DNA from: Phocaeicola intestinalis
GTDB lineage: Bacteria; Bacteroidota; Bacteroidia; Bacteroidales; Bacteroidaceae
Direction: 5' to 3'
Assembly (NCBI RefSeq): GCF_014837065.1
Contig: NZ_JACSPP010000005.1
Coordinates: forward strand, 62,001 to 126,000
DNA: 64,000 bases
This document shows positions 29,314 through 45,752 of this stretch, piece by piece (the stretch's first letter is position 1; every line of letters begins with the position of its first letter). The notes under the pieces were generated by a model. That model was not told the origin of the DNA, did no database searches, and worked only from the letters and a program-made list of their open reading frames with translations. Made by a program: the position numbers and the translations under genes.

Positions 29314-29348
29314 ACAAATCATATCCTATCGGGAAACAAATGCATCCC
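29314..29348 (+). promoter_or_regulatory. Direct-repeat operator upstream of susC (putative HTCS site)
   Basis: ACAAATCATATCC (29314-29326) and ACAAATGCATCCC (29336-29348) are direct repeats with a 22-bp period. The 35-bp block is 28/35 identical to the block at 45718-45752. TACATTTG at 29370-29377 is a likely -7 box 21 bp downstream, so a bound activator would sit next to RNA polymerase. Binding by the locus HTCS is inferred. Confidence 0.65.
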
Positions 29349-29369
29349 TCCGTTTTTCATAATATGCAA

Positions 29370-29377
29370 TACATTTG
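29370..29377 (+). promoter_or_regulatory. Candidate -7 box of the susC operon
   Basis: TACATTTG matches TAnnTTTG. It leaves a leader of about 80 nt before the susC ATG. Confidence 0.5.
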
Positions 29378-29462
29378 TGGTGCTCTCGATGCAGAAAACG
29401 CATGCGTGCGATTCTATCGGGGCATATAGAATAATGTAATTTTAACTATTAAACAAAGTACC

Positions 29463-32400
29463 ATGAGTAAACACTTATTCAGAAAGTGCACATTCGTGCA
29501 CATGTGTTTTCTTGCAATGGCGATGCTTCTATGCTTCCCTGCAAGTGGTGTGAACGCCGCTCCGGCTTCACAAGAAAATCTAACTGTTTCGGGTGTTGTT
29601 ACTTCGGCCGCTGACCAGTTGCCGCTTATCGGCGTCAGCGTTCAGGTGAAGGGAACATCCAATGGTTCTATTACCGACCTCGATGGAAATTATTCGGTCA
29701 GTGTAGCTTCCGGTCAGACGTTGGTATTCTCTTACATCGGGTTCAAGACCCAAGAAATTCAAATTACCAATCAGAAAACCTTGAATGTGGTGATGGAAGA
29801 AGATTCGGAAACTTTGGATGAAGTAGTCGTAGTAGGTTACGGCGTTCAGAAAAAGAAATTGGTGACCGGTGCCACGGTGCAGGTGAAAGGCGAGACGCTG
29901 GCGAAGATGAATACCAACAGCCCCTTGCAGGCGATGCAAGGACAGACGCCGGGTGTGAACATTTCGTCTACCTCTGGTCAGCCGGGCGAATCGATGAAAG
30001 TAAGTATCCGTGGTTTGGGTACGGTGGGAAATGCTTCTCCTCTGTATCTGATTGATGGAGTAGGCGGTGATATCTCCACGTTGAATCCGGCCGATATCGA
30101 AAGCATCGATGTGTTGAAAGATGCCGCTTCTGCCGCTATCTATGGTGCACAGGCTGCCAACGGTGTGGTATTGATTACCACCAAGAGCGGTAAGGCAGGC
30201 AAGGCGCAGATTTCGTTTGATGCTTACTATGGCTGGCAGACCCAGGCACGTAAGGCGGACATGCTGAACGCACAGGAATATATGATGATTATGGACGAAC
30301 AGGCGATTAATTCGGGCAATGCGCCCTATGACTGGAGCTCGTACGAGAGCATTTACGATGCCAACGGCAATGTGTATGACACCGACTGGGTAAACTCGAT
30401 GTTCCAGAACAATGCCCAGACACAAAGCTATACTTTGGGTATTACGGGCGGTTCGGAAACTTCTACTTACGCGATGTCGTTGGGCTATATGAGCCAGGAA
30501 GGTATCGTAGGCGGTAAGGACGTATCGAATTACGAACGTTACAACTTCCGTATCAATTCGGAACACAAGCTTTTCAAGGATTCCGACTTGTTGAAGGTAG
30601 GAGAGCAGGTCAGCTTCGTTTATAAGATGAACAACGGTATTTCAGTAGGTAACCAATATAATAATACATTGCGTGGTGCGTTCGGTACTTCCCCGTTGGC
30701 GCCTATTTATAGCGACAACAACATTTATGATTCACCTTATAACGATACGACCAACTCGGATTGGTATAATGCAGATGGCAACCCTTACGGAAGCATGATG
30801 ACCAACAGCAATAACGAGAATAAGGACGTGACTTTCTCGGGTAATGTGTATGCCGAATTGCAACCCATTAAGAACTTGAAGTTCCGTACCGTATTCGGTG
30901 CTGTATATACAACGAACGAATACCGCAGCTTCTCTCCGTTGTACCAGTTCTCTATTTATAGTTTCAACAATACACGTACCAGTGCTGCCCAAAACATGTC
31001 GCACGGCTTGACGATGACATGGACCAATACGGCAACCTACGACTGGACGGTGGGCGAACATGCGTTCAACGCTTTGTTGGGTATGGAAATGAGCCGTTAT
31101 TCAGGTACTTACCTGAGAGGAACTACCGGTATGTTGCGAGATGGGTTTGATGATTGGGATCATGCGTACCTCGACAACGGTACAGCTACCAGTGCCGATA
31201 ACGGCTTGGGAGTGGCCGGTCATCCGAATGATGAGACCCGCACTGTCTCTTATTTCGCCCGTTTCGGATGGAACTGGAAAGAAACGTATATGATTAACGC
31301 TACGGTACGTACCGACGGTTCTTCCCGCTTCGCTCGTGGAAACCGTTATGGCGTGTTCCCTTCAGTATCTGCCGGTTGGACTATCTCGAACGAAGCTTTC
31401 ATGGAAGACACACACGATTGGCTGGACTTCTTGAAGCTGCGTGTCAGCTGGGGCCAGGTAGGTAACCAGAATATTGATAACTATCAGTACACGGCTCCGA
31501 TTACTTCGAGCAATACGCATTACCTGTTTGGCAATCAGGTGGGAGCCGATGCCCAGTCCGGCTATTGGGGCGCTTATCCCAGCCGCCTTGCCAACGAAGA
31601 CGTTACATGGGAGACTTCCGAACAGACCAACATCGGTATTGATGCACGTTTCTTGCGGAGCCGGTTGAGCCTGACCGCTGATTTCTATATCAAGACCACG
31701 AAAGACTGGCTGGTAGAAGCTCCGATTCTGGCTACGGCAGGTACGGGCGCTCCGTATATCAATGGCGGTGATGTAAAGAATACCGGTATCGAGTTAGCTT
31801 TGACTTGGAACGACCAGATTGGGAAAGACTTCAGTTATAACGTAGGTGTCAATGGTGCGTATAATAAGAATAAGGTGGGTGATATTCCGACCGAAGACGG
31901 CATTATCCACGGTGATATCAATATGTTGTATGACAATACGCCGGAATTCTACCGTGCGTCGAACGGTCATCCGATAGGTTACTTCTGGGGATATCAGACG
32001 GCAGGAATCTTCCAGAACAAGCAACAGATTGAAGATTGGCGTGCGGCAGGGAACGGCATCTTGCAAGCTGATGTCCAGCCGGGTGATGTCATCTACGTAG
32101 ACCAAGACCATAACGGGGTGATTGATGATAACGATAAGGTGGACTTGGGTAACGGTACGCCCGACTTTACGTATGGTTTCAATATTGGATTCAGTTATAA
32201 GAATTTCGATTTTGCCTTGAACGCATACGGAGCCGCCGGAAACCAGATTGTACAAAGCTACCGTAATCATGCCAATAGCCATTCGAACTATACCTCGGCT
32301 ATCTTGGGACGTTGGACGGGTGAAGGTACCAGCAACCGCATTCCGCGTGTGACGGAAACCAATATCAACTGGCAATTCTCCGACCTGTACATTCAGGATG

Positions 32401-32639
32401 GCGACTATTTGCGCATCAGCAACATCACCATCGGATACGACTTTGCGAAACTCATCAACCTGAAGGCTATTAGCCAGGCCCGTTTGTACTTCCAAGTACA
32501 GAATGCCTTTACTTTTACCAAGTATGACGGCATGGATCCGGAAATCGGTTACGGTACTTCTGACTGGGTATCGGGCATCGATTTGGGATATTATCCGCGT
32601 CCGCGTACTTACCTGATTGGTGTGAACTTGAAATTTTAA
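29463..32639 (+). CDS. SusC-type TonB-dependent glycan transporter
   Basis: A 1058-residue outer-membrane importer. After a signal peptide (to VNAAPA, ~33), it carries a carboxypeptidase-regulatory-like domain (~40-115, VSGVVTSAADQLPLIGVSVQVKG). The TonB-box region LDEVVVVGYGVQKKK follows, then a plug domain (~130-245, SPLYLIDGVGG, AAIYGAQAANGVVLITTKSG) and a 22-strand barrel ending in the aromatic C-terminus GVNLKF. With SusD it should import oligosaccharides, probably xyloglucan-derived, across the outer membrane. It is the first gene of the susC-susD-SGBP-GH5 operon, preceded by a direct-repeat operator. The SusD gene begins 17 bp after its stop. Substrate assignment comes from the neighbouring enzymes. 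Confidence 0.95.
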   Translation: MSKHLFRKCTFVHMCFLAMAMLLCFPASGVNAAPASQENLTVSGVVTSAADQLPLIGVSVQVKGTSNGSITDLDGNYSVSVASGQTLVFSYIGFKTQEIQITNQKTLNVVMEEDSETLDEVVVVGYGVQKKKLVTGATVQVKGETLAKMNTNSPLQAMQGQTPGVNISSTSGQPGESMKVSIRGLGTVGNASPLYLIDGVGGDISTLNPADIESIDVLKDAASAAIYGAQAANGVVLITTKSGKAGKAQISFDAYYGWQTQARKADMLNAQEYMMIMDEQAINSGNAPYDWSSYESIYDANGNVYDTDWVNSMFQNNAQTQSYTLGITGGSETSTYAMSLGYMSQEGIVGGKDVSNYERYNFRINSEHKLFKDSDLLKVGEQVSFVYKMNNGISVGNQYNNTLRGAFGTSPLAPIYSDNNIYDSPYNDTTNSDWYNADGNPYGSMMTNSNNENKDVTFSGNVYAELQPIKNLKFRTVFGAVYTTNEYRSFSPLYQFSIYSFNNTRTSAAQNMSHGLTMTWTNTATYDWTVGEHAFNALLGMEMSRYSGTYLRGTTGMLRDGFDDWDHAYLDNGTATSADNGLGVAGHPNDETRTVSYFARFGWNWKETYMINATVRTDGSSRFARGNRYGVFPSVSAGWTISNEAFMEDTHDWLDFLKLRVSWGQVGNQNIDNYQYTAPITSSNTHYLFGNQVGADAQSGYWGAYPSRLANEDVTWETSEQTNIGIDARFLRSRLSLTADFYIKTTKDWLVEAPILATAGTGAPYINGGDVKNTGIELALTWNDQIGKDFSYNVGVNGAYNKNKVGDIPTEDGIIHGDINMLYDNTPEFYRASNGHPIGYFWGYQTAGIFQNKQQIEDWRAAGNGILQADVQPGDVIYVDQDHNGVIDDNDKVDLGNGTPDFTYGFNIGFSYKNFDFALNAYGAAGNQIVQSYRNHANSHSNYTSAILGRWTGEGTSNRIPRVTETNINWQFSDLYIQDGDYLRISNITIGYDFAKLINLKAISQARLYFQVQNAFTFTKYDGMDPEIGYGTSDWVSGIDLGYYPRPRTYLIGVNLKF

Positions 32640-32656
32640 TTGAACTATCTAAAACA

Positions 32657-34387
32657 ATGAAAGGTATGAATAACTATAAAATCTATATAATGGCATTGGG
32701 GTTGGCTGGAATGGGCTTGGCTTCGTGTACGGCTGATTTCCTGGATGTGGAGTCGAAAGTAGAATCTACTACTGGCAATTTCTATCGGACGGAAAGCGAT
32801 GCATACCGGGCTTTGATAGGATGCTATGACGGGTGGCAAAGTACGGTTTCGAACGGCACTTCGTTTTATATGGCTTCAGAGCTGATGGCTGACGAGTGTT
32901 TTGGAGGGGCTGGCGTTTCGGATGCCCGTAATTATCAGATTATTGACCGTTTCGACCAGACGCAATCTCCTTCTGATTTGAATCTTTTCGAAGGGGATTG
33001 GACGGGATATTATGCGGCGGTGTACCGTTGCAATGAACTGATTGCGCATGAAGAACAGATTTCTTGGACAAGTGAGGAGACAAGAGGTACTTACATGGGT
33101 GAATGTCGTGCTCTGCGTGCTTTGTGCTATTTCGATATGGTGCGTTTATGGGGGAATATTCCTTTGTTTACCGAACCGGTGAACGAGAACCGACCGCAGG
33201 CTGAACCGGATGAAGTGTATAATGTTATTTTCAGCGATTTGCTTTATGCGGCTGAAAACATTCCGGCTTCGGCTTACCCGAAGAGCGATGCGGCGAACAA
33301 CGACGGGCATATCACCCAGTATGCCGCCAAAGCCCTGCTGGCCCGTGTCTATTTGTTCTATACCGGTTATTATGGCAAGGAACCCAGTGTAGAAGGTGTG
33401 ACCCGTGCTTCTGTGTTGCAAGGTTTGGAAGATGTCATTTCTTCAGGCGAATATGCGTTGGTTCCGCAATTTAAGAACTTGTGGGTGCCCGCTTCCACTT
33501 GGTGGGAAGGCGATGCTGCGAGCGGTTATACCCAACATTCTACTTACGCCGGTCGGGGCAATGAAGAAACCGTATTGGCACAGAAGTTTAACTATACTTC
33601 TGATTATAACGGAAACAATGATGGAAACCGCTGGCTGGTGAATGTAGGCATTCGTAGTATCAATGTGTATTGGACACCTTACGGAAGAGGTTGGGGCATC
33701 TGTACGGTCAATCCGAAAATGTGGACGGCTTACAATACCGGAGATACACGTCGTGAAGCGTCTATGGTGAACCTTTTAAGCGAGGGCATTGCCGAAGACC
33801 CGAATTATGAAAACGGTTATAATGACCAGCGTGAATATACAGGCTATACCATTAAGAAATATACTCCGATGTCGAAATGGGAACAGAACGAATCGACCGG
33901 TGCATGGGCGTTGACCGATGAAACCACTGGATTGGGAAGCGGGGGCGACTATATGGTTTCCCAATACCAGGACTTTGTGGTAATGCGTTATGCCGATGTG
34001 TTGCTCATGGCGGCTGAGTTGGGAAGCTCCAATGCACAGGAATACTTGAACCAAGTACGCCAGCGTGCCTTTACCGAAGAAGACGAGAACGGCGATTTGG
34101 TTTTGTCTACTTACTATCGTCAGGTATCCGTTACGCAGGAAAATATCATGAACGAGCGTATGCTGGAGTTTGCTTTCGAAGGGCAGCGTTACTGGGACTT
34201 GCTCCGTCAAGGTGTGGACTATGCCGCTTCTCAAATTGCGGGAAATACATCAGTAGTTAGTGGTGGCAATCCGGATAATGTAAGCGTTACGGCTTCAAAT
34301 ATCACTAGCAAACAAGGTTTGATGCAGATTCCGAATAATCAGATTACCTTGTCGAACGGTGTATTGAAGCAAAATGCAGGTTGGTGA
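32657..34387 (+). CDS. SusD-type surface glycan-binding lipoprotein
   Basis: A 576-residue RagB/SusD protein. The lipobox is LGLASC with Cys at ~24, placing it on the outer membrane. The start may also be ATG 32666. Family features include FLDVESKVESTTGNFYRTESDAYRALIGCYDGWQ, the TPR-like segment ECRALRALCYFDMVRLWGNIPLFTEP, YAAKALLARVYLF, and the C-terminal MNERMLEFAFEGQRYWDLLRQG. It caps the partner SusC and helps capture glycan. It follows susC by 17 bp. A palindromic stretch of 112 bp separates it from the next lipoprotein gene. Confidence 0.95.
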   Translation: MKGMNNYKIYIMALGLAGMGLASCTADFLDVESKVESTTGNFYRTESDAYRALIGCYDGWQSTVSNGTSFYMASELMADECFGGAGVSDARNYQIIDRFDQTQSPSDLNLFEGDWTGYYAAVYRCNELIAHEEQISWTSEETRGTYMGECRALRALCYFDMVRLWGNIPLFTEPVNENRPQAEPDEVYNVIFSDLLYAAENIPASAYPKSDAANNDGHITQYAAKALLARVYLFYTGYYGKEPSVEGVTRASVLQGLEDVISSGEYALVPQFKNLWVPASTWWEGDAASGYTQHSTYAGRGNEETVLAQKFNYTSDYNGNNDGNRWLVNVGIRSINVYWTPYGRGWGICTVNPKMWTAYNTGDTRREASMVNLLSEGIAEDPNYENGYNDQREYTGYTIKKYTPMSKWEQNESTGAWALTDETTGLGSGGDYMVSQYQDFVVMRYADVLLMAAELGSSNAQEYLNQVRQRAFTEEDENGDLVLSTYYRQVSVTQENIMNERMLEFAFEGQRYWDLLRQGVDYAASQIAGNTSVVSGGNPDNVSVTASNITSKQGLMQIPNNQITLSNGVLKQNAGW

Positions 34388-34401
34388 ATAATAAGTTTTT
34401 G

Positions 34402-34471
34402 AGTTCTTAAGTTTTTAAGTTTTTGAGTTGACGAGGCTTACAAAACTGATAAATTCAAAAACTTAAGAACT
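34402..34471. repeat. Intercistronic inverted repeat
   Basis: AGTTCTTAAGTTTTT (34402-34416) and its exact complement (34457-34471) flank 40 nt, and the left arm is partly repeated in tandem. It lies between susD and the SGBP gene and may lower downstream expression or protect mRNA ends. Confidence 0.6.
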
Positions 34472-34499
34472 AACAAACCATTTTTTAAATCGAAACATT

Positions 34500-36305
34500 A
34501 TGAATAAACTGATACATACATTGCAAATGGCGCTGCTGGCGATGCTGATGGGTATGACAGCTGCCTGTACGCCCGATTCATACGACTTGGAAGCTCCGGA
34601 TGTAGCTTCTGAAGATTTGGTAGAAGGCATTGCCTATACCATTACTCACGATTCGGAAAATCCGAATATCGTTTATTTGAGAAGCCTGATGCCTTCCAGT
34701 TATCAGGTATGCTGGGAACATCCGCAAGGACGTGCACAAGGAGCCGAAGTGACTTTGCAGATGCCTTTCGAGGGAGAATACGAAGTGCGTTTCGGCGTAC
34801 AGACCCGCGGTGGTGTGGTTTATGGTCCTACTGCGACTTTTACCATTGACAGCTTCTATGCAGGTTTTGTGAATGATGACCTGTGGACGTATCTGACTGG
34901 AGGGGTAGATCAGGAGAAAACCTGGATTTTCGATAACGGAGAATACGGATTTGCAGCCGGTGAACTGACATACGCCGATCCTTCGGGTACGGTGACTTGG
35001 AATAACTGGACTGCCAATTGGGATCCGGGAGTAGGACATACAGGCGATGATGCCATTTGGGAGAGCACCATGACGTTCAACCTGCAAGGCGGTGCAAATG
35101 TGACGGTGTATAATTCTTCATCGGATGAAACTCAGACCGGTACATTTATGTTGAATACCGACTCGCATACCATTACCTTTACCGATTGTGACTTGCTGCA
35201 TACACCCGGTTGGACAGACCGTACGACAAACTGGCGTAGAGATTTGCAACTGTTGGAACTGGATGAGAATCATTTGCGTATCGGCGTGATGCGTGACAAC
35301 AGTGAAGGGCCTTGGTGGCTGATATGGAATTTCGTATCGAAAGAATATGCTGACAATTATGTACCCGAAGACCAACCCGATCCGGAACCTTCGTTGCCCG
35401 ACGGCTGGCAGGATATGGTTTCAGAAGTGGTTACAAGCGAAATCAAGTGGACCATGTCGGCTGACGTGCCGTTTGACTGGGCTAATCTGGACGGAAGTCT
35501 GATGAACAACTTTACCGCAGGCAATTATCCCGACTGGGCTACACCGGTAGATGGACTGGAAAACCTGAGCATGACACTGAATTCGGCGGATATGACTTAT
35601 ACGTTCGAAATGCCGGACGGAACGACTACCAGCGGTACTTATACCTTGGATGAAGACGGTATCTATACGTTCAGTGCCGGTGTGCCGACTTATCATATCG
35701 GTGGCGGTGACATCATGTTCAGTGCTACGGCAGAAAACCAATTGCGTATCTTGAGCATTGAGACGGCAGGAAACAGCGTGATGGGTATGTGGTTAGGAAA
35801 CCGCAGTACGGAGAAAGACGAATACTTGGCTTACCACTTCTTGCCGAATGCCGGTAGCGGAAGCGGTACGCCGACGGCTACGGAGATTGCCGTAGACAAT
35901 AGCAAAATTGTTTGTGGGCATCTGGAAGAAGCTACGAATAATTTCCGTATCGAATTGTATAACATGTATGGTTCCACGGCTTCCAACCAACCGTTTGACC
36001 CAGCTTCCATTGTGTTCGATTATTCAATGGAGCTGACGTTTACAATCAGTGGACTGACCGGTGCGGCTGCAACCAATGCCTATACCGCCCAACTGATGTG
36101 TACGGCTGACGGCTGGTGGCCGTCGGTAGGCGAAGGTCAAGGTACGACAACCGTACAGGGTGACGGCACTTATACGATTCGCTACAGCCCTTCGGCAGCC
36201 TACAACGGTGTGATTGTTTTCTGCATCGATATTCAGGAGATGTTCAGTGATATCGAAAATCCGGATGCCGTAACGGTTACGATTGATAATCTTTCTATTC
36301 TGTAA
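34500..36305 (+). CDS. Surface glycan-binding lipoprotein (SusE/F or SGBP-B position)
   Basis: A 601-residue lipoprotein (lipobox TAAC, Cys ~23). The N-terminal domain (~30-120) looks like the PKD/Ig-type spacer of SusE/F proteins. Two consecutive beta-rich modules (~125-290 and ~305-455) look like duplicates: both run from TWNNW/KWTMS through a THT-like strand to a WLG/WLI strand before a YADNY/YLAY turn, separated by a PDPEPSLPDG linker. A C-terminal carbohydrate-binding-like domain (~465-601) ends VTVTIDNLSIL. It presumably binds glycan at the surface next to SusD. It does not obviously resemble the B. ovatus xyloglucan SGBP-B, so ligand specificity is uncertain. Confidence 0.8.
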   Translation: MNKLIHTLQMALLAMLMGMTAACTPDSYDLEAPDVASEDLVEGIAYTITHDSENPNIVYLRSLMPSSYQVCWEHPQGRAQGAEVTLQMPFEGEYEVRFGVQTRGGVVYGPTATFTIDSFYAGFVNDDLWTYLTGGVDQEKTWIFDNGEYGFAAGELTYADPSGTVTWNNWTANWDPGVGHTGDDAIWESTMTFNLQGGANVTVYNSSSDETQTGTFMLNTDSHTITFTDCDLLHTPGWTDRTTNWRRDLQLLELDENHLRIGVMRDNSEGPWWLIWNFVSKEYADNYVPEDQPDPEPSLPDGWQDMVSEVVTSEIKWTMSADVPFDWANLDGSLMNNFTAGNYPDWATPVDGLENLSMTLNSADMTYTFEMPDGTTTSGTYTLDEDGIYTFSAGVPTYHIGGGDIMFSATAENQLRILSIETAGNSVMGMWLGNRSTEKDEYLAYHFLPNAGSGSGTPTATEIAVDNSKIVCGHLEEATNNFRIELYNMYGSTASNQPFDPASIVFDYSMELTFTISGLTGAAATNAYTAQLMCTADGWWPSVGEGQGTTTVQGDGTYTIRYSPSAAYNGVIVFCIDIQEMFSDIENPDAVTVTIDNLSIL

Positions 36306-36313
36306 TATTTGTG

Positions 36314-36353
36314 GGCGCAGGTGTATGCGGATAGAACTGCATGGGCCTGCGCC
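36314..36353 (+). terminator. Hairpin between the SGBP and GH5 genes
   Basis: GGCGCAGG (36314-36321) pairs with CCTGCGCC (36346-36353), followed by TTTC. It is probably an attenuator or partial terminator inside the operon. Confidence 0.5.
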
Positions 36354-36377
36354 TTTCTACTAATCAATGATTAACCT

Positions 36378-38165
36378 ATGAAAACTATGCGAAATTATCT
36401 GACATTATTCTTTCTGTTGCTGACGGGGATAGCCTTGTTTGCTTCTTGTTCGGATGACGAAGGCGGAGGCTATACGGGAGAAACGAAAATCTCCGCTACG
36501 GAAATGACTTTCCCTAAATCCGGTGACACACTCACGCTTTCTGTCTTGTCTTCGGTTGAACCACAAGTGACCAGTAATCAGACTTGGTGCAACGTGTCAT
36601 TCGTGAGTGTAACCGAAAGAGGAACTTATACCTACAATGTAACGGTAGATGCTAATTCGGAAACCGATGACCGCGTGGCTACGCTTTCGGTGGTGGCAGG
36701 AAGCTTTACGGCTTCGGTGCAGGTGACACAGACTGCCGGAGACGGTTTGATTGTGGCACAGACTGCATACGATATGCCGGCGGCAGGAGGTGCGCTGAGC
36801 ATTACGCTGACCACCAATGGCGATTATGCCTATACAATCAATGACTCGTGGATAGCTGAGGCAGAAGTGACCGATGCGCGGGCAATGACGGAATATACCT
36901 TGCATTTTACCGTATCTGCCAATCACGGCGCGGAACGCACCGGAACCATTACGTTTACGTTAGGCGACTTGACGGAAACCGTTACTGTAACACAGGCTGC
37001 CGGACAGGCTGCAGCCGTGTCGGGAGAAACGCCGTTGGAAATAGCCGCCAGCTTGGGACTGGGATGGAACTTAGGCAATCAGTTGGATGCACATAATAAT
37101 GGAGTGGCAGATGAAACAGCTTGGGAAAACCAACCTGCTACACAGGCCTTGTTTGATGCTTTGGCAAATGCCGGTTTCACTTCTGTCCGTATTCCGGTTA
37201 CGTGGCTGGGACATGTGGGCGAAGCTCCCGATTATACCATCGACGAGACTTACTTGAACCGGGTGGCAGAAGTGGTAGGCTATGCCGAGAGTGCCGGACT
37301 GAATGCCATTATCAACATTCACCACGATGGTGCGGACAGCCAGTATTGGCTGGATATCAAGGATGCGGCAACGGATGAGACGGTCAATAGTGCGGTAAAG
37401 GCACAGCTGGCTGCCATGTGGACCCAAATAGCCAACCGATTTGCAGACAAAGGAAACTTCCTGGTGTTCGAGGCAATGAACGAAATCCATGACGGAAGTT
37501 GGGGCTGGGGAGACAACCGTACGGATGGCGGCAGACAATATGCCGTACTGAATGAATGGAACCAAGTGTTTGTAGATGCCGTGCGTGCTACGGGTGGAAA
37601 CAACCAGACCCGTTACCTGGGCGTGCCGGGGTATGTGACAAACATCGACCTGACGGTAGAAAACTTTGTCTTGCCGCAGGATGTGGTGGATAACCGGCTG
37701 ATGGTAGCCGTTCACTTCTACGACCCGATAGACTATACCGAGAATGCCGACAATATTTATTCGCAATGGGGGCATACCGCAGACCCGTCGCTGAAAGCGG
37801 ATTGGGGTGATGAAGACAATGTGACCGGACAGTTTGCCAAGATGAAAGAAACGTTCATCGACCAAGGTATTCCTGCCTATATCGGCGAGATGGGATGCGT
37901 ACACCGTGCGGATGACTTGTCGGAATCGTTCCGTTTGTATTACTTGGAATATGTATGTAAGGCAGCGAAAGAGTATGGGATGCCTCCATTTTATTGGGAT
38001 GCAGGAGGAGACGGAACCGGAACACAATCATGGGCACTTTTCAATCACGCTACAGGCGAGATGCTGAATAATGCTCAGGAAGTGATTGACGTGATGAAAC
38101 GGGGCATCTTTACCGAGGATGCATCATACACCTTGCAGTCGGTATACGACAGTGCGCCGCAATGA
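36378..38165 (+). CDS. BACON-GH5 endo-glucanase (probable endo-xyloglucanase)
   Basis: A 595-residue lipoprotein (lipobox FASC, Cys ~25). Two BACON Ig-like domains occur in tandem (~35-118 and ~122-208, each ending VTQTAG/VTQAAG), followed by a GH5 catalytic domain (~215-580) of subfamily-4 type. The latter has GWNLGNQLDAH, SVRIPVTW, INIHHDG, the acid/base Glu369 in FEAMNEIHDG and the nucleophile Glu504 in YIGEMGCVHR. It resembles B. ovatus BoGH5A, the surface endo-xyloglucanase, which has one BACON domain. It would cut the beta-1,4-glucan backbone outside the cell to make oligosaccharides for SusC/D. It is the last gene of the susC operon, ending at a strong terminator. Confidence 0.92.
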   Translation: MKTMRNYLTLFFLLLTGIALFASCSDDEGGGYTGETKISATEMTFPKSGDTLTLSVLSSVEPQVTSNQTWCNVSFVSVTERGTYTYNVTVDANSETDDRVATLSVVAGSFTASVQVTQTAGDGLIVAQTAYDMPAAGGALSITLTTNGDYAYTINDSWIAEAEVTDARAMTEYTLHFTVSANHGAERTGTITFTLGDLTETVTVTQAAGQAAAVSGETPLEIAASLGLGWNLGNQLDAHNNGVADETAWENQPATQALFDALANAGFTSVRIPVTWLGHVGEAPDYTIDETYLNRVAEVVGYAESAGLNAIINIHHDGADSQYWLDIKDAATDETVNSAVKAQLAAMWTQIANRFADKGNFLVFEAMNEIHDGSWGWGDNRTDGGRQYAVLNEWNQVFVDAVRATGGNNQTRYLGVPGYVTNIDLTVENFVLPQDVVDNRLMVAVHFYDPIDYTENADNIYSQWGHTADPSLKADWGDEDNVTGQFAKMKETFIDQGIPAYIGEMGCVHRADDLSESFRLYYLEYVCKAAKEYGMPPFYWDAGGDGTGTQSWALFNHATGEMLNNAQEVIDVMKRGIFTEDASYTLQSVYDSAPQ

Positions 38166-38222: not shown

Positions 38223-38256
38223 CAGAGGCAGATTGTGAAGTCTGCCTCTGTTTTTT
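38223..38256 (+). terminator. Rho-independent terminator of the susC-GH5 operon
   Basis: CAGAGGCAGA (38223-38232) pairs perfectly with 38241-38250 and is followed by six T residues. A second small hairpin (38195-38212) precedes it. Confidence 0.9.
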
Positions 38257-38293
38257 ATGTCCGTATTCAATGGGCATGCATAGAATAAAAAAT

Positions 38294-38425: not shown

Positions 38426-38547
38426 CATGAATATATTGCTTTGTCGAGAGTGTATTCCTCATCCGTTTTTTATTTCTCCCCGGAACAGTCGTTTCCGTAT
38501 TTGGATTACATTATCGTTTCATCCAGCTTCTATTTATGGTTTTCATA

Positions 38548-38626
38548 TGAAAACCGTACGGTTTCCATATTGAGAACGTACGGTTTCCAATTCAAAACCA
38601 TACGGTTTTGATATCGAGAACGTAAA
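38548..38626. repeat. Cluster of GTACGGTTT palindromic repeats
   Basis: Three CGTACGGTTT or CATACGGTTT cores and a final half-site alternate with GAGAACGTA segments at about 21-23 bp spacing. Two cores form the palindromes AAACCGTACGGTTT and AAACCATACGGTTT. The function is unknown; it lies just beyond the end of the fimbrillin-like gene. Confidence 0.65.
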
Positions 38627-38688
38627 AGTATGCCTTCTGAAAAAACGATATGACTTACATGCAAAACCAAATGTTTCTTAATACCGTA

Positions 38689-39654
38689 TTATTCCAGAAT
38701 AGGGACATTGATTTCTTCGTTTGACTCGTTCCATTCGTCAACGGTGAAACTGCCCGAATCTTCTTCTTCCAGGATATTGCCGATGCTGATATCAAGTGTC
38801 AACTTATTGTTGGCTTCCAGTGGGGTATTCAGTGTTTGTTTGAATGTCTTGACCTTTCCGTTGGTCAATGTGATGAAGACTTGGAGTTCGGGTGTACCGA
38901 AAGAAGGGAATAGCATCACGGTGCCGTTGCTCATTTCTGTATTGTCATCGGAGCGGACCAGCGGGAAAGCTACTGTGCAGGATTTGCCTTCGGGTTGGGC
39001 TGAATAGAAGTTCAACTTTTCAGCAATGTGTGTTACCCGTACTTCTACGTTTTCGATAGTATTGCTCAAAGCATTGCCTTTGTTGTCTTTTAACGTTACT
39101 TTCAGTCCGCTCACTACTCGGTGCAGGTCTGCGTCCAGGTCTTCTGTTCCGACATTTACCGGGCGGCGGGCATGTACGAGGTCGAAAGTGGGATAATAGG
39201 TCGTGTCATTGGAAATGGCAAGCAGGCTGAAGTCTTGTTGGGCAAAGTCTTCACCGATGCTGTAGTTGGGTTCTCGTACATTCGGATAAGCGTAAATGGG
39301 TTCGGTATACTGAGGCGTACCCCAATAAATCATGTCGTATGTACCGGCAGGCAGGCTTACTTCCTGGTTGTTTGCATTGGGATAAACGGAACCGTCTTTG
39401 ATGAAATAATATCCATGGAAGGGTGTCAGTTTCTGGTTTACATAATTTCCATAATAAATGGATGTGCTTTCGTTGCAGGGAGCTACGCTCAGTACTCCTG
39501 TAAAAGGTTTGTTCCCGTCACGGGTAGATATGCCCATGTACATGGCAGGACTGATCAGGTCGGATGTCGGGTTTTCGGGTGCTACCGGAATGTCATCGTT
39601 GTGGCAGCTTGTCACGAATAGGGCAAGTACTGTCAAGAATGCTAATTTTTTCAT
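38689..39654 (-). CDS. Fimbrillin-like (FimB/Mfa-type) lipoprotein
   Basis: A 321-residue lipoprotein (MKKLAFLTVLALFVTSCHND, lipidated Cys ~17). The layout resembles Bacteroidales type V fimbrial subunits of the FimB/Mfa2 or fimbrillin group. An N-terminal beta domain contains LPAGTYDMIYWG, then LVHARRPVNVG, then LHRVVSGLKVTLKDNKGN, and a late strand (KQTLNTPLEANNKLTLDISIG) precedes a FTVDEWNESNEEINVPI C-terminus. A partner operon of fimbrial genes is absent, so it may be an orphan subunit or a surface lipoprotein of related fold. It lies inside the PUL, between GH5 and the HTCS, on the opposite strand, and has no evident link to glycan use. Confidence 0.6.
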   Translation of the reverse strand: MKKLAFLTVLALFVTSCHNDDIPVAPENPTSDLISPAMYMGISTRDGNKPFTGVLSVAPCNESTSIYYGNYVNQKLTPFHGYYFIKDGSVYPNANNQEVSLPAGTYDMIYWGTPQYTEPIYAYPNVREPNYSIGEDFAQQDFSLLAISNDTTYYPTFDLVHARRPVNVGTEDLDADLHRVVSGLKVTLKDNKGNALSNTIENVEVRVTHIAEKLNFYSAQPEGKSCTVAFPLVRSDDNTEMSNGTVMLFPSFGTPELQVFITLTNGKVKTFKQTLNTPLEANNKLTLDISIGNILEEEDSGSFTVDEWNESNEEINVPILE

Positions 39655-39841
39655 TACTTATTGGTTTTTAATTGGTTCTATAGATATAACACGCCGGTTG
39701 TCCCTTTTGTTCTTACAGCAGGAAGAAAATGTCCGAAAGCCTGTGTCTTTTGCTGTTGCCTTCATGTCTGTGGGCTATGATACGCTCCTGCAAAAAACGC
39801 TTTGACGATATTCACAGTCCATTTCTGGTTGGCTATAATCT

Positions 39842-39873
39842 ATTGCATTTTATAAAATATATCATTACCTTTG
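39842..39873 (+). promoter_or_regulatory. Candidate promoter of the Rpn/PDDEXK gene
   Basis: ATTG (39842-39845), a 20-bp spacer and TACCTTTG (39866-39873) approximate the Bacteroides consensus, 27 bp before the ATG. Confidence 0.6.
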
Positions 39874-39899
39874 TGGCAAACCCCTAATTAACTACGTAC

Positions 39900-40802
39900 A
39901 TGAGATATTTGGACCCTAAAGCCGACCTGACTTTCAAGAAAGTTTTCGGCGAACACCCCGACTTGGTTATCAGCCTGCTCAATGCCTTGCTGCCTTTCGA
40001 AAAGCCCGAAGAAGAGATTGCGGAAATCGAATACCTGACACCGGAACTGGTGCCGGAAACGCCACTGAAAAAGAACAGCATCGTAGACGTGCGCTGCAAA
40101 GACAAAATGGGCAGGCAGTTTCTGGTAGAGATGCAGATGCTTTGGTCTCCTGCATTCATGCAGCGCGTGTTGTTCAACGCTTCGAAGGCATACGTGCGCC
40201 AGCTTGGAGGCAGAGAGAGCAAATACGAACTGCTCCAGCCCGTGTATTCGCTTAACTTGGTGAACGACATCTTCCTGCCGGATGTGCCGGAGGCTTACCA
40301 CGACTATAAAATCGTGCAGGTGGAACATACTGACAAGGTGATTGAAGGACTGCGCTTCATCTTCGTAGAGCTTCCCAAATTCAAGCCACAAGATTTCAAA
40401 GGCAAGAAAATGGCGGTACTTTGGTTGCGGTATCTGACGGAAATAGACGAGCATACGCGGCAAGCCCCCAAAGAGTTATTAGAGAATCCGGAAATCAGTA
40501 AGGCGGTGACGCAAATCGAAGAATCCGCCTTCAGCGATGCCCAACTGTGGTGGTATGATGACTTTTGGGATGCCGTGCGGGTGGAAAACACTCTGATTAG
40601 CGATGCTTTGCGCGAAGGCAGACAGGAAGGCAGACAGGAAGGCAGACAGGAAGGTATACAGGAAGGTATACAGGAAGGTATACAGGAAGGTATCCGACAA
40701 AACAGCATCCAAAATGCCCGTGGCATGAAAGCGGAAGGCATTCCGGCGGGAATCATCGCGAAAATAACCGGACTTACGCCGGATGAAATTGAGAAACTGT
40801 AA
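39900..40802 (+). CDS. Rpn-family PD-(D/E)XK nuclease / transposase-like protein
   Basis: A 300-residue protein of the Rpn (recombination-promoting nuclease, PDDEXK_2) family. The N-terminus MRYLDPKADLTFKKVFGEHPDLVISLLNALLP is diagnostic. The nuclease core has the metal-binding Asp in NSIVDVRCKD and the ExQ variant in FLVEMQM, as in many family members. The C-terminus has a run of EGRQ/EGIQ tetrapeptides (about 238-264), encoded by exact 12-bp tandem repeats, then a helix-turn-helix-like end (GIPAGIIAKITGLTPDEIEKL). Rpn proteins promote DNA cleavage or recombination, and many vary in length through such repeats. It has its own promoter and terminator and lies within the PUL gap. Confidence 0.88.
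   Translation: MRYLDPKADLTFKKVFGEHPDLVISLLNALLPFEKPEEEIAEIEYLTPELVPETPLKKNSIVDVRCKDKMGRQFLVEMQMLWSPAFMQRVLFNASKAYVRQLGGRESKYELLQPVYSLNLVNDIFLPDVPEAYHDYKIVQVEHTDKVIEGLRFIFVELPKFKPQDFKGKKMAVLWLRYLTEIDEHTRQAPKELLENPEISKAVTQIEESAFSDAQLWWYDDFWDAVRVENTLISDALREGRQEGRQEGRQEGIQEGIQEGIQEGIRQNSIQNARGMKAEGIPAGIIAKITGLTPDEIEKL
40614..40691. repeat. 12-bp in-frame tandem repeats within the Rpn gene
   Basis: Three copies of GAAGGCAGACAG (40614-40649) are followed by three of GAAGGTATACAG (40650-40685) and a partial unit. Each unit adds four residues, so copy-number change keeps the frame. Confidence 0.95.
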
Positions 40803-40848
40803 TCAATCTAAACTTACGCGGCAATACCTGCCGCACATAAATAAAGCA

Positions 40849-40878
40849 GCTAATCCGCAAGGGCTGGCTGCTTTATTT
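40849..40878 (+). terminator. Terminator of the Rpn gene
   Basis: AAATAAAGCAGC (40849-40860) pairs perfectly with 40867-40878 over a short loop, then TTG. The A/T flanks allow use in both directions. Confidence 0.75.
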
Positions 40879-40891
40879 TGATGTAAGAAGA

Positions 40892-41620
40892 CTATTTCTT
40901 TTGATAGATATTCATCACACATGCCGCATAAAATTCTCGCCCCAGAAATGATATGCTAACTTCTCTAGTATATTGTTTACCGACGCCAAAATTTCCGGTA
41001 GCAGGTAAATCTTCTATTTCCATATTAAACTTATGTTCTGGCCAATATTCTGAAAAATCAATACGCCGTCCATCTATGACCAAAAATTGATCATAACATC
41101 TGATGAACACTATTACTCTATACAACGGTTGGTACTGATTATTGTAACACTAAAATATTATTTAGATTTTCTACTTCTACTGTTGAAGTCAAGATTTTAA
41201 AACCTTCAAAATTTCCACCTTCTGTTGCTCCTTCTATGGAAATAAGCACTACTACCATCAGCATAAGAAGCTGTTTTGAATTTATCGTGCGATGATTTGG
41301 GATGAGTTTTTGAGGCATTTTCGCTTCTGTGATGAGGAAGATAGCGGGCTATCTGACGAAGAACAGGAGCGAAAAGGACCAAAAAATCGCCCAAAGCACA
41401 CACGAAAACGAACACATCAAGCCAAGAAAAACTTTTTGGAGAAATTCAAAACAGCTTCTAAGTATCTTCTACTTCTTCAACAGGAGAATTTTTCTGCGAG
41501 GTCTGTGCTCCATAATTGGTAAATAGCAGATGTGCGTGTAGCCCAATAATAATCCGTAAATTGGCTGGTTGTAAGTGCATGTCAGCTGTATATGTTTTAA
41601 ATGAAAGAGCCGTGGCTTCT
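40892..41620 (-). pseudogene. Remnant of an unidentified gene, frameshifted and split by a MITE
   Basis: On the minus strand a coding-like stretch (NNQYQPLYRVIVFIRCYDQFLVIDGRRIDF... ending MNIYQKK) has no ATG and runs from about 41143 to 40892. Immediately upstream another frame reads on (LISIEGATEGGNFEGFKILT) but hits a stop, suggesting a frameshift near 41143. Beyond the MITE (41267-41458) a third open stretch (MHLQPANLRIIIGLHAHLLFTNYGAQ) leads into the insertion point. I take these as pieces of one decayed gene broken by the MITE; the family is unknown. Separate short genes cannot be excluded. Confidence 0.4.
41267..41458. mobile_element. MITE copy B, 192 bp, with TAA target duplication
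   Basis: This is the reverse complement of copy A (12679-12870), of equal length and nearly identical sequence. Terminal inverted repeats start GAAGCTGTTTTGAATT, and TAA flanks both ends (41264-41266, 41459-41461). It has no transposase. It sits inside the gene remnant at 40892-41620. Confidence 0.88.
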
Positions 41621-41707
41621 TATTTAGAAAAAAACGGGTGCGCTTGCTTTTTTCTCGTTTTTTTGTTTCTTTTGTAATCGAAAACAAACAAAGCCTTTCA
41701 TCTTATT

Positions 41708-44700
41708 ATGCTGAAAAAACAGATTCTTATTGCATTGTTTATTATACTGGCATGTGCCGGAAGTCGTGCACACCGCTATATGTTCAAGCATTTGGAAGTA
41801 GCCGACGGGCTTTCCAGCAATACGGTTTATTCTATTTATCAGGATCGGGACGGATTTATGTGGTTCGGTACGCGGAACGGGTTGAACCGTTATGATGGGT
41901 ATACTTTCCGCGTGTTCCGGCATTTGAATAATGACCCGTATTCGTTGCCCGATAATGTGGTAGCGAATATTTGTGAGAGTCCCGAAGGCATGTTTTGGGT
42001 AAAGACTGAGCGTGGATATGCTTTGTTTGAGAAAGATAAGGGGGTTTTTGTCAATGATTTGAGTGGTTTCATGAAACAATTGGGCAGCAACGCTAAAAAT
42101 CCAATGTCTGTCTATGTGGACAAGAAAGGATATACGTGGTTGTATGTTGCCGGAGAGGGGTGTTACCGGTATAAGCAGGGAGAAAAGCCGAAAGTCTTTG
42201 TATTGCGGGAAAACGGCTTGCCTGTATCGGGAATCACTGCGGTGGGAGAGTGCCGTGACGGCATTTTGTTGTTGTATGATACAGGGCTGCTGGTCTGCAT
42301 CGGGCGTGACGAACTGGACCTGAAATGGAAAAGAGATGATATACCGGCTCAACTTCCGAAGGGGAAATACGTTCAGTTTTCGCTTTTTACGGATGCTGAT
42401 GACTGTGTGTGGATATACAGCGTGTTGGGGCTGTGGGTATATGATGTGCCAACCGGACGCTGGCGTGATGATTTGGCCGCTCCCTGGAAACATCAGACAG
42501 ACTTTGTACATGCGATGGCGCAGGATAAGACCGGACGCATTTGGCTGGCAAAGGAATATAAAGGCATTGACGTGTTCGACAAAAAGACAGGTGAGGTCGT
42601 AAATCTGACAAATCATGAAGACGACGAACGTAGCTTGTGCCACAATACGGTGTATCAGCTTTATGTCGACCGTAACGGTTTGGTATGGGCAGGTACTTAC
42701 AAGAAAGGCATTTCGTATTACGGGGAAAGTATCTTCAAGTTTAACTTCCAGTCTTTGGGGGATATTACGTGTATCGAGCAGGAAGATGCGCAACGGCTGT
42801 GGCTGGGTACTAACGATGACGGGTTGCTTTTGTGGAATATCCAGACAAGGAAGTTTGAGGAATATGGTTCCCGTCGGATGGGTTCGAATCCGATAGTTAC
42901 ATTGCTGAAGACCCGTGACGGGAAATTATGGGCTGGCACTTTCAACGGTGGGTTGTATTGTCTGGATAAAGGAAATATTATCCGGTACACGATGGCAGAT
43001 GGCTTGTCGAGCAACAATGTTTGGGATTTGGTGGAAGACCGGGAAGGTAATCTGTGGATTGGTTACTTGGATGCAGGATTGCAATGTTTTCATCCGCAGA
43101 CAGGAGAAATGGAGACTTATACAACTGCCAATTCGGATTTGCCCGATAACCTGATTAATTCGCTTTGCCTTTTACCCGATAATACCTTGGTGATTGGTAC
43201 GGTAGGAGTCGCATTTATGAACTTGCAGGACCGGAAAATTCGCAAGATGCCATCGGCAGCTGAAGACAGAAACGATTTTGGGGTCAATCAGGTATTTGGA
43301 GACAGCAGGGGACTGGTATGGATTGCTACTCTCGAAGGATTGAAGATGTATGACCCGAAATCGCAGGTATTGAAAGAGTTTTCCGATATTACAAGGGAAG
43401 AAGGGGAGATGATTTCGGGGATTGCTGAAGACCACAGACATAATCTGTGGATTTCGTCAACCCGGAGGATGGTTCATATCAACGTGTTGCAGCAGGGCGA
43501 GGAAGGCTATTCGTTTGAACCGCATGTGTATGGTAATGCAGACGGGCTTCAGAATTGCGATTTCAACTTGCGTTCCATCAAGACTCTGAAAAACGGAACG
43601 ATTGTGGCGGGAGGACTGTATGGCTTGAATATTTTTAATCCAAGTGAAATCAGTTACAATAAGCAGTTGCCCAATGTCTTGTTCTCCGGCCTGTCCTTGT
43701 TTGACAAGGAGGTGGAGGTAGGCAAAACGTATGACGGCAATCTGATATTGCCCGAAGACTTGAACAAGGTCCGTAAGGTGGAATTGGATTACAGGCAGAA
43801 TATTTTTTCCATTGAACTGGCTACGGATAATTTCATCTTGCCGGAAAAGACCTTTTTCCGGTATAAGCTGGAAGGAATCAGTAAGGACTGGTTATCGCTT
43901 CCACCAGGTATCCACAGGCTTGTATTCACCAATCTGAATCATGGCGTTTATACACTAAAGGTGAAGGCGGTCAATAGCGATGGCTATGAAAGCAAGGAGA
44001 TGGCACAACTGAAATTGATTGTGCGTCCTCCCTTTTGGTTGTCGTGGTGGGCTTACCTGCTTTATATAATTATAGGTGTAAGTGCCTTGTTGTTTGCCCG
44101 GCGTTTGACTTTGAAGCGTGAACGTGAAAAGTTCCGCATGCAGCAGATAGAGCAAGAAGCAGCCCGGAAGGAGGAAATCAATCAGATGAAGTTCCGTTTC
44201 TTTACCAACATCAGCCACGAATTGCGTACGCCATTGACTTTGATTATTGCTCCGCTGGAAGATTTGTTGAAGAAAACGGCAGAGGATGAATCGCAGCGTA
44301 ATGTGTTGCAGCTGATGTATCGCAATGCGCAGCGTCTGCTGATGTTGGTCAACCAGTTGCTGGACTTCCGGAAAGGAGAGATGAGCGGGCATCACTTGTC
44401 GTTGTCGGAAGGAGATATTGTGGGGTATATCCATGAGGTCTGCAATTCGTTTTTGTCAATGGCAGACAAGAAGCATATCCGGTTTTCTTTCTTTTCGGGG
44501 GTGGATGCGTTTTCGATGGCTTTCGATGCCGACAAGATAGGGAAGGTGGTGATGAACCTGCTTTCCAATGCCTTTAAGTTTACTCCTGAGGGCGGACGTG
44601 TCACCGTGATGCTGGAGTATGTGGAAGGCGATTCGAACGTATTCGAGATAAAGGTTTCAGATACAGGAATCGGCATCCCCGACGGTGAAAAGGAACATAT

Positions 44701-45718
44701 CTTCGAGCGTTTTTACCAGATAGAGCATAAGGGGCAGGATGAAATGACGGGAAGCGGCATCGGCTTGAGTCTGGTGCGGGATTTTGTCAGGCTGCATGAC
44801 GGTACGGTGGAAGTCTTTGATAACATCGGTACGGGAGCAGTATTTGTGGTATGCTTGCCGGTAAGGCATGTCGACGTAAAGGCAGAATTGCCTAAACCGG
44901 TATGTGTGCCTATGGATGAAGGGCAGGAGACGGCAATGGCATCGACCGACCGGAAGGATTTTCCGCTTTTGCTTGTCGTGGATGACAACGAGGATTTCCG
45001 TTTGTTTATGCAGCACAGTCTGGAACTGCAATACCGGGTAGAGGTTGCCTCGAACGGGCAGGATGCCTTGACGAAGGTGCAGGAACTGCAGCCCGATTTG
45101 GTCATCAGTGATGTGATGATGCCCGGTATGGATGGAAACGAACTGTGCAGGCTGATAAAAGGAGACAAGCGTACGGCACACATCCCGGTTATCCTGCTGA
45201 CGGCGCGTCAGGCGGTGGAATCGAAAGTAAAAGGACTGGAGACGGGAGCAGACGACTATGTGACCAAACCTTTCAACATGACTGTATTGGTGTTGCGCAT
45301 CCGGAAACTGATAGAATTGAGCCGTTATCATCGGTCTGCACAAACATCGACCATAGACCCGGCTCCGAGCGAAATACTCATTACGTCCTTGGATGAAAAG
45401 CTGATAGAGAAAGCAGTGAAATATGTGGAAGAAAACATTTCGAGAAGCGATTTGTCGGTAGAGGAATTGAGCCATGAACTGGGGATGAGCCGTGTGCACC
45501 TTTATAAGAAGTTGTTACAGATTACCGGAAAGACTCCCATTGAGTTTATCCGGGTTATCCGGTTGAAAAGAGCAGCCCAGTTGTTGCGTGAAAGTCAGAT
45601 GCATGTATCGGAGATTGCCTATGAAGTAGGTTTTAACAACCCTAAATATTTCAGCCGTTACTTTAAGGAGGAATTTGGCGTTTTGCCCTCTGCCTATCAG
45701 GAAAAAGAGGGTAAATAA
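41708..45718 (+). CDS. Hybrid two-component system regulator (HTCS) of the PUL
   Basis: A 1336-residue one-protein signalling system. After a signal peptide (1-21) comes a periplasmic sensor of two seven-bladed propellers (~25-670, repeated W.G....GL....) and a Y_Y_Y domain (~680-780). A membrane helix (~790-810, LSWWAYLLYIIIGVSALLF) follows. The kinase has the H box ISHELRTPLT (His837) and an ATPase domain (GSGIGLSLV). The receiver follows (Asp1135 in SDVMMPG), then an AraC-type HTH (~1230-1336, SRVHLYKKLLQITGKTPIEFIR; IAYEVGFNNPKYFSRYFKEEFG). It should bind an oligosaccharide of the target glycan and activate the PUL operons. It lies directly upstream of the GH31 operon, and a direct-repeat operator starts at its stop codon. 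Confidence 0.95.
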   Translation: MLKKQILIALFIILACAGSRAHRYMFKHLEVADGLSSNTVYSIYQDRDGFMWFGTRNGLNRYDGYTFRVFRHLNNDPYSLPDNVVANICESPEGMFWVKTERGYALFEKDKGVFVNDLSGFMKQLGSNAKNPMSVYVDKKGYTWLYVAGEGCYRYKQGEKPKVFVLRENGLPVSGITAVGECRDGILLLYDTGLLVCIGRDELDLKWKRDDIPAQLPKGKYVQFSLFTDADDCVWIYSVLGLWVYDVPTGRWRDDLAAPWKHQTDFVHAMAQDKTGRIWLAKEYKGIDVFDKKTGEVVNLTNHEDDERSLCHNTVYQLYVDRNGLVWAGTYKKGISYYGESIFKFNFQSLGDITCIEQEDAQRLWLGTNDDGLLLWNIQTRKFEEYGSRRMGSNPIVTLLKTRDGKLWAGTFNGGLYCLDKGNIIRYTMADGLSSNNVWDLVEDREGNLWIGYLDAGLQCFHPQTGEMETYTTANSDLPDNLINSLCLLPDNTLVIGTVGVAFMNLQDRKIRKMPSAAEDRNDFGVNQVFGDSRGLVWIATLEGLKMYDPKSQVLKEFSDITREEGEMISGIAEDHRHNLWISSTRRMVHINVLQQGEEGYSFEPHVYGNADGLQNCDFNLRSIKTLKNGTIVAGGLYGLNIFNPSEISYNKQLPNVLFSGLSLFDKEVEVGKTYDGNLILPEDLNKVRKVELDYRQNIFSIELATDNFILPEKTFFRYKLEGISKDWLSLPPGIHRLVFTNLNHGVYTLKVKAVNSDGYESKEMAQLKLIVRPPFWLSWWAYLLYIIIGVSALLFARRLTLKREREKFRMQQIEQEAARKEEINQMKFRFFTNISHELRTPLTLIIAPLEDLLKKTAEDESQRNVLQLMYRNAQRLLMLVNQLLDFRKGEMSGHHLSLSEGDIVGYIHEVCNSFLSMADKKHIRFSFFSGVDAFSMAFDADKIGKVVMNLLSNAFKFTPEGGRVTVMLEYVEGDSNVFEIKVSDTGIGIPDGEKEHIFERFYQIEHKGQDEMTGSGIGLSLVRDFVRLHDGTVEVFDNIGTGAVFVVCLPVRHVDVKAELPKPVCVPMDEGQETAMASTDRKDFPLLLVVDDNEDFRLFMQHSLELQYRVEVASNGQDALTKVQELQPDLVISDVMMPGMDGNELCRLIKGDKRTAHIPVILLTARQAVESKVKGLETGADDYVTKPFNMTVLVLRIRKLIELSRYHRSAQTSTIDPAPSEILITSLDEKLIEKAVKYVEENISRSDLSVEELSHELGMSRVHLYKKLLQITGKTPIEFIRVIRLKRAAQLLRESQMHVSEIAYEVGFNNPKYFSRYFKEEFGVLPSAYQEKEGK

Positions 45719-45752
45719 CAAATGATACCCCATACGGAAACAAATGAAGCCC
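45718..45752 (+). promoter_or_regulatory. Direct-repeat operator upstream of GH31 (putative HTCS site)
   Basis: ACAAATGATACCC (45718-45730) and ACAAATGAAGCCC (45740-45752) repeat with a 22-bp period and match the susC-upstream block at 28 of 35 positions. The repeat starts at the last base of the HTCS stop codon, 62 bp before the -7 box. Confidence 0.65.

Follow-up and report, generated by a model that had tools for sequence, protein, structure and literature searches.

The 64,000-nucleotide stretch of the Phocaeicola intestinalis genome analysed here (assembly GCF_014837065.1, contig NZ_JACSPP010000005.1, positions 62,001–126,000; hereafter the window) carries a polysaccharide utilization locus (PUL) together with a gene for a hybrid two-component system regulator (HTCS), and three operons of this locus are preceded by related tandem-repeat blocks that are interpreted here as predicted operators of the HTCS. 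According to gene calls and Pfam, the PUL contains glycoside hydrolase (GH) genes of the families GH43, GH95 and GH3, a GDSL esterase-like gene, SusC, SusD, a gene in the position of a surface glycan-binding protein (SGBP), GH5 with BACON domains, the HTCS, and a further set of GH31, GH2 and GH3. The first predicted target operon (29463–38165, plus strand) consists of SusC, SusD, the SGBP-like gene, which had no Pfam match and is named from its position, and GH5-BACON. The second (45839–53645, plus strand) includes GH31, GH2 and GH3, with the real GH31 start probably at 45863 or 45872, and the third (21024–28218, minus strand) is formed by GH43 and an overlapping GH95 with a GDSL domain; the GH3 gene behind it sits 272 bp further on and may be a separate transcription unit.

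The gene set resembles xyloglucan loci. The xyloglucan utilization locus of Bacteroides ovatus combines GH5 with BACON, GH31, GH2, GH3, GH43, SusC/SusD and SGBP-like genes, and the window PUL is presumably comparable to it, the likeness extending to gene families only; by this analogy, its substrate is probably of the xyloglucan type.

The HTCS, the proposed binder of the blocks, is encoded at 41708–45718 (plus strand) and unites a Reg_prop propeller, Y_Y_Y, HisKA, HATPase_c, Response_reg and an AraC-type HTH_18 domain (Pfam), so that the propeller, kinase, ATPase, receiver and HTH_18 modules of an AraC-type HTCS are all present in one chain. The HTH_18 DNA-binding domain occupies residues 1254–1332 (45467–45703, plus strand), and the best-scoring solved chain for the region from the receiver to the DNA-binding domain was 12aw_A, a "hybrid two-component system protein" (E 3.4e-62).

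Repeat blocks and half-site arrays

The sequence-only reading had pointed to two direct-repeat blocks as an operator shared by the two main operons, at 29314–29348 before susC and at 45718–45752 before GH31. Both were found as described, identical at 28 of 35 positions and each with ACAAAT units 22 bp apart, and the third, weaker copy reported on the minus strand before GH43 (28342–28308) was confirmed as well, sharing 18/35 and 19/35 positions with the other two. No pair of 35-mers from the two upstream regions agrees at more than these 28 positions, while 1000 mononucleotide shuffles gave a mean of 19.8 and a maximum of 24; a pattern search of the window matched exactly the two blocks, with 0.01 expected. 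When the half-sites were taken as 13-mers, the internal repeat at offset 22 matched at 11/13 positions for GH31, at 8/13 for SusC and at only 5/13 for the GH43 block, which is therefore recognised through its likeness to the other blocks and not through its own repeat. The GH31 block overlaps the HTCS stop codon by a single base, its own first and the codon's last (45718). The bare ACAAAT-N16-ACAAAT was rejected as a motif, since it has six exact copies in the own genome and is hence unspecific.

Judged from sequence and spacing, the block is one unit of a putative array with half-sites at 0, 22, 42–43 and 64–65, of which the SusC promoter has two, the GH43 promoter three and the GH31 promoter four. 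The SusC operator (29314–29348, plus strand) consists of two direct half-sites, 29314–29326 and 29336–29348, and the candidate −7 box of the operon, TACATTTG at 29370–29377 (plus strand), lies at +56 from the block start, 34 bp downstream of where the proximal half-site begins. At the GH31 promoter, the distal dimer (45718–45752, plus strand; half-sites 45718–45730 and 45740–45752), which is conserved in 18 other HTCS/GH31 gaps, is followed by a weaker proximal dimer at 45760–45794 (plus strand), assigned by position, with half-sites at +42 (45760) and +64 (45782, ACATTTG); the candidate −7 box TATCTTTG at 45815–45822 (plus strand) is placed at +97, 33 bp downstream of where the fourth half-site begins. 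On the minus strand before GH43, the distal dimer (28308–28342; half-site starts at 28342 and 28320, reading down) is followed at +42 by a third half-site, ACAGAGAATACCC (28288–28300, minus strand), which with 9.4 bits of the matrix described below is the second-best half-site of this promoter (shuffle P 0.0065), and the candidate box, again TATCTTTG (28259–28266, minus strand), is located at +76, 34 bp after the third half-site start. The +56 register was also present in the SusC promoters of the related loci L040 and L041, and the +76 register in the GH43 promoter of L040 and the GH95 promoter of L041.

Thus, in all three window promoters, the promoter-proximal half-site starts 33–34 bp before a TAnnTTTG box. 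The gaps between block and candidate −7 box, measured as 21 bp (SusC), 41 bp (GH43) and 62 bp (GH31) in agreement with the sequence-only reading, are explained by zero, one and two extra half-sites downstream of the block, and it is these extra half-sites at the GH43 and GH31 promoters which that reading had missed. Two further observations concern the window itself. Most of the first half-site recurs in inverted orientation, as GAAATCATTTGT, downstream of the GH31 block at 45788–45799, possibly by chance, and another intergenic matrix match, of 11.3 bits, was found at 34473.

Conservation and specificity of the motif

An HTCS protein search was conducted in 61 congeneric genomes, and 20 loci were fetched, one each from 20 genomes, with L044 representing a second PUL of the own genome. 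The HTCS was followed by GH31 in 18 of the 20 loci, and the motif was present at the HTCS stop codon in 18/18 of these. The comparison of related upstream regions, proposed as a check of the operator idea, thereby showed that 17 other species, as well as the second PUL of the own genome, keep the motif before GH31; it also recurred before SusC, GH5, GH43 and GH95-type genes. The last 95 residues of the HTCS were 82–98% identical in the 20 homologues. The two loci without GH31 behind the HTCS, L057 and L058, had neither the motif at the HTCS stop nor any site of at least 11 bits within their stretches, and their genomes gave no match at either register of the whole-genome patterns used below. 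In the HTCS homologues of these loci (L057:14263–18222 and L058:14246–18205), Pfam recognised the propeller, HisKA, HATPase and HTH_18 domains and no receiver.

A matrix of 28 columns was built from 14 sites on the GH31 side, 13 of them from other species and one from L044; the training set contained neither the window nor its closest relative L040 (94% identical), and the near-duplicates L047 and L048 as well as L052 were also excluded. The held-out window sites scored 39.3 (GH31), 29.5 (SusC) and 16.6 bits (GH43), while 30 shuffled windows yielded on average 0.03 matches of at least 16.6 bits and 0.23 of at least 11 bits per window. Over the 20 loci, matches of at least 11 bits were concentrated between genes, with 49 in 41.6 kb of intergenic sequence (training sites counted) versus six in 340 kb of genic sequence. 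The mean information content was 1.30 bits at positions 0–27 versus 0.44 at 28–50 and 0.35 at 71–95, i.e., the block is kept while the spacer drifts.

A motif search of the own genome and of the genus did not reveal many equally good copies before unrelated genes, the presence of which had been named in advance as fatal to the operator idea. In the 4.07-Mb own genome, a degenerate 35-mer with up to three mismatches matched only the three window sites; it was composed to include the GH43 copy, and the fair reading is that nothing else was found. A shorter core with up to two mismatches matched 15 places versus ten for the reversed control and is therefore near background at that looseness. Its six best matches (0–1 mismatch) included the three window sites, two sites in the second PUL on contig C78 and one on contig C74, the latter within a 588-aa reading frame.

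For the whole-genome search of the 61 congeneric genomes, the patterns joined the dimer to the −7 box at the two main registers. One register pattern gave 16 sites in 12/61 genomes and the other seven sites in 5/61, with none for the reversed control. Genomes in which the HTCS adjoins GH31 were matched in 14/18 cases and the remaining ones in 0/43 (Fisher 1e-10), the presence of GH31 in the latter being inspected only in HTCS-centred stretches from some of them. Altogether, 21 of the 23 pattern sites fell within the fetched HTCS-GH31 stretches, and the two outside belonged to genomes G020 and G006. The G020 site (L176:8427, contig C1) precedes a GH43 gene outside the main PUL stretch with its own single-dimer operator and a −7 box at +55; this GH43 is 58% identical to that of the window, and the 20-kb main PUL stretch of G020 is without GH43. 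This GH43 gene is flanked by genes for an AAA_26 P-loop protein and a methyltransferase, which look biotin-synthesis-like by eye. The G006 site (L177:10126, contig C39) is a 32-bit operator before a TonB-receptor SusC-type gene of another locus, outside the HTCS locus; the gene preceding this susC had a weak GH2 TIM-barrel match (Pfam), and an AraC-like protein in the same stretch shares 35% identity with the DNA-binding domain of the window HTCS.

Loci of other HTCSs were nearly free of such sites. In 18 of them, with DNA-binding domains 37–59% identical to that of the window, three matches of at least 11 bits were found, two genic (15.1 and 11.2 bits) and one intergenic (11.2 bits); L176 and L177, which were selected for having a site, are not among the 18. 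Forty further loci (724,571 bases) contained three matches of at least 14 bits, two intergenic (17.0 and 18.0) and one genic (16.3). All 58 loci of other HTCSs taken together are thus almost devoid of the sites, which are confined to the regulon of one HTCS type, with these matches, the G006 susC site and one pattern match near no recognised PUL gene (L207, below) as exceptions. The 18.0-bit intergenic site (L225:6373, minus strand), with a −7 box at +76, belongs to another HTCS locus of genome G022, which possesses the HTCS-GH31 pair as well, and could be either chance or a real outlying site. A scan of genome contigs for HTCSs gave distant ones, the best being 44% identical among the segments listed, in a search from which records very near the window were possibly excluded.

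Across the family, the tandem pattern matched 17 sites in 15 of 399 genomes (control 0), 11 of the sites in the genus and six in three other genera. Three of the latter six precede SusC genes 62–74% identical to the window SusC and one precedes a SusC-type gene at 33%. Another (L206) is located between a GH95 gene and a divergent 660-aa fimbrillin-like (Mfa_like_1) gene (7939–9921, minus strand), facing the latter, and one match (L207) was near no recognised PUL gene. Genes of 641–670 aa also sit behind operators in L043 and L045–L048. In the window, the region between the susC operon and the HTCS is occupied by an Mfa2-type fimbrillin-anchor gene (38689–39654, minus strand) and a PDDEXK-family transposase-like gene (39900–40802, plus strand), and Mfa2 relatives are also present in L040, L041 and L202.

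Distance between half-sites and promoter

The register seen in the window was compared among 19 GH31 promoters, including that of the window, with L046–L048 being near-identical. The distal dimer was at 0 and 22, and the fourth half-site was recognised at 64–65 in 18/19. Its distance to the −7 box was either 33 bp (15 cases) or 34 bp (three cases), that is, in 18/18 measurable promoters. The box read TAnnTTTG in 16/19 and TAnnTTTA in L045, L055 and L056, while L051, L052 and L055 had a second, looser box elsewhere. For the proximal dimer, offset 42/43 was the best among offsets 29–109 in 14 of 17 non-redundant GH31 promoters, albeit with low absolute scores.

The same distances were followed in a set of 28 sites before genes other than GH31. 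This set retained the L041 GH95 site in spite of a score below 11 bits and received L176 and L177 from the register-bearing pattern search, while L044:7539 was dropped (wrong strand). Outside it stayed the sites of L040 as a near copy of the window (its match at 10720 being without a box), L040:1029 and L051:1378, which lie inside GH31 promoters, the window match at 34473, and the intergenic matches L041:835, L054:3990 and L055:14673 (11.1–15.5 bits, no −7 box listed). An exact TAnnTTTG was present at 24 of the 28 sites, 11 at 55–56, ten at 97–99, two at 76 and one at 88, so that 21/24 had the box at 55–56 or 97–99 from the dimer start. Without L176 and L177 the count was 19/22, and 15/18 when the near-duplicates L047 and L048 were removed as well (binomial 6e-17 under a uniform null, 5 of 93 positions).

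A general rule, in which all HTCSs would use direct repeats at a fixed −7 box distance, failed replication and the claim was dropped. Among the 18 loci analysed first, with 63 non-redundant promoters, the top signal had a spacing of 21 and a start 59 bp before the box, with nulls obtained by anchor jitter as high in 3/1000 and later 8/500 cases. In the replication with 40 loci (116 non-redundant promoters), this pre-set cell was reached by 79/500 nulls, and the overall maximum, located elsewhere, by 130/500. Many of the boxes in the general-rule set may come from promoters without an HTCS.

The regulator, alternative explanations and significance

Very probably, the blocks are the operators on which the response-regulator/AraC-type output of the HTCS (41708–45718) acts, presumably as an activation array. 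The claim of the sequence-only reading that the local AraC-type HTCS has an operator common to both main operons is supported by comparative evidence, with binding itself as a prediction. In the proposed mechanism, the periplasmic propeller would sense an oligosaccharide, probably from xyloglucan, whereupon the HTCS would be phosphorylated. Its DNA-binding domains would dock as head-to-tail pairs on ACAWWT-N-ATACCC half-sites every 20–22 bp, all on the same face of the double helix, the start of the last half-site being 33–34 bp before the −7 box and thus roughly at the position expected for the −33 element of Bacteroides promoters, and the docked HTCS would help RNA polymerase to start transcription. 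One regulator would in this manner switch three operons via operators of different length, i.e., one pair for SusC, three half-sites for GH43 and two pairs for GH31. More tentatively, and somewhat less likely than not, the arrays may be length-coded: the docking point would stay in place, units would be added upstream of it at intervals of 20–22 bp, and their number (two, three or four) would evolve per operon and determine how strongly, or at what threshold, the transporter, the backbone enzymes and the side-chain enzymes of one PUL are expressed relative to each other.

Several results weigh against the operator interpretation. The third and fourth GH31 half-sites are weak as sequence (−5.7 bits for the window pair) and are argued from position. 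Four of the 18 HTCS+GH31 genomes missed both whole-genome patterns, though their loci carry the motif, and the DNA-binding domains of L057 and L058 are 82–84% identical to that of the window and yet these loci are site-less, so domain identity alone does not predict a site. Among the register counts, four of the 28 non-GH31 sites were without an exact −7 box, one box was at +88 and two at +76, and within the 15/18 count the 55–56 class was defined on these data, while the 97–99 class was known beforehand from the GH31 promoters. No HTCS was recognised within the six stretches fetched from other genera, and the link between operator and HTCS has therefore been demonstrated within the genus only. 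Finally, the own genome encodes a paralogous HTCS with a 91% identical DNA-binding domain and similar sites, so that either of the two may bind.

This paralogue leads to the most serious alternative, according to which the window sites are bound mainly by the HTCS on C78, or by both, the two PULs being cross-regulated; it is considered unlikely, if clearly ahead of the others. The second xyloglucan-type PUL (L044, C78:21800–41700) has the same operator type, which suggests cross-regulation. The C78 regulator is 68% identical overall to the window HTCS, with the stretch SRVHLYKKL, which we take to be the recognition helix, unchanged, and its GH31 and GH5 promoters have the same motif in the same registers (+97, and +55 with TATTTTTA). 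Against this stand the adjacency of the window HTCS gene to the window sites, the single near HTCS match in each of the other 17 HTCS-GH31 genomes among the matches listed, and a difference between the two domains near the second helix-turn-helix (NNPKYF in the window vs NSPRYF).

That the HTCS represses rather than activates through the sites is improbable. Precedent is given by BT2391, an HTCS deviating from the S/CHIP-DK motif, which is described in PMC11253607 as a repressor of its PUL, and the window HTCS reads AHIP at the corresponding place, the comparison covering the S/CHIP part of the motif. HIP is, however, kept in the window HTCS, and the sites are upstream of the −7 box and not over it, which suits activation.

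Marginally less probable still is the binding of another regulator, either a Crp-like global one of the BT4338 type or a SusR-like protein. PMC3878776 predicts a 22-bp motif of the Crp type upstream of numerous sugar genes and gives SusR-like motifs as direct repeats too, but it describes the Crp-type motif as a palindrome. Only 4/28 positions of the dimer match in inverted orientation, so a palindromic Crp-type site was rejected for lack of inverted symmetry; moreover, a global site should recur before many genes, while the degenerate 35-mer is confined to this PUL and the operator co-occurs with this particular HTCS type, in searches aimed at HTCS genes and not at SusR-like ones. The origin of the two blocks as leftovers of a duplicated promoter or as a functionless repeat element, which their 28/35 identity inside one locus might suggest, is hardly credible, since the 60-base flanks are unlike (18/60 and 13/60) and thus speak against a recent promoter duplication, which was rejected on this ground, while the block is conserved across species with a drifting spacer and a fixed promoter register.

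Operator sites of this kind are known. According to Ravcheev et al. (PMC3878776), HTCS motifs were predicted in 2013 as direct repeats averaging 21 bp, and the system described here resembles them in the AraC-type HTCS, the two conserved sites about two helical turns apart, the position before susC/susD-type operons and the recognition by phylogenetic footprinting. Direct half-sites (GH31 and SusC, with only 5/13 for GH43), a spacing of 22 vs approximately 21 bp, conservation and confinement to one HTCS type were all found in the present case. It differs from those motifs, which are described with two sites each, by having two, three or four half-sites, a fixed −7 box distance and an HTCS-GH31 xyloglucan-type PUL. 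A paper of 2024 (PMC11253607) reported gel shifts in which response-regulator fragments of the HTCSs BT4124 and BT4663 bind promoter DNA, and also the S/CHIP-DK contact. The likeness lies in the receiver plus AraC-type domain and in susCD promoters with earlier predicted sites, binding in the window being predicted; those regulators concern other PULs and sites, and a half-site array or promoter register is not described in the passages searched. Neither HTCS half-site arrays nor a fixed −7 box distance were found in the accessible portions of PMC5061871, PMC12125979, PMC10766802, PMC6874557, PMC7366714, PMC12596196 and PMC11501099, with supplements and RegPrecise outside this scope. The putative modular array with a fixed promoter register is therefore new as far as the searched literature tells, although an earlier description may exist elsewhere.

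Among the regulators of glycan use in Bacteroides, HTCSs form a major class (PMC11253607), and most of their DNA targets are only predicted in the portions of the literature searched. The present analysis yields a specific predicted operator for one HTCS type together with a promoter register which can be read from sequence. The predicted operators form a natural series of two, three and four half-sites, which makes the effect of operator length on induction within one PUL directly testable, and such operators are possible parts for glycan-inducible expression in gut commensals.

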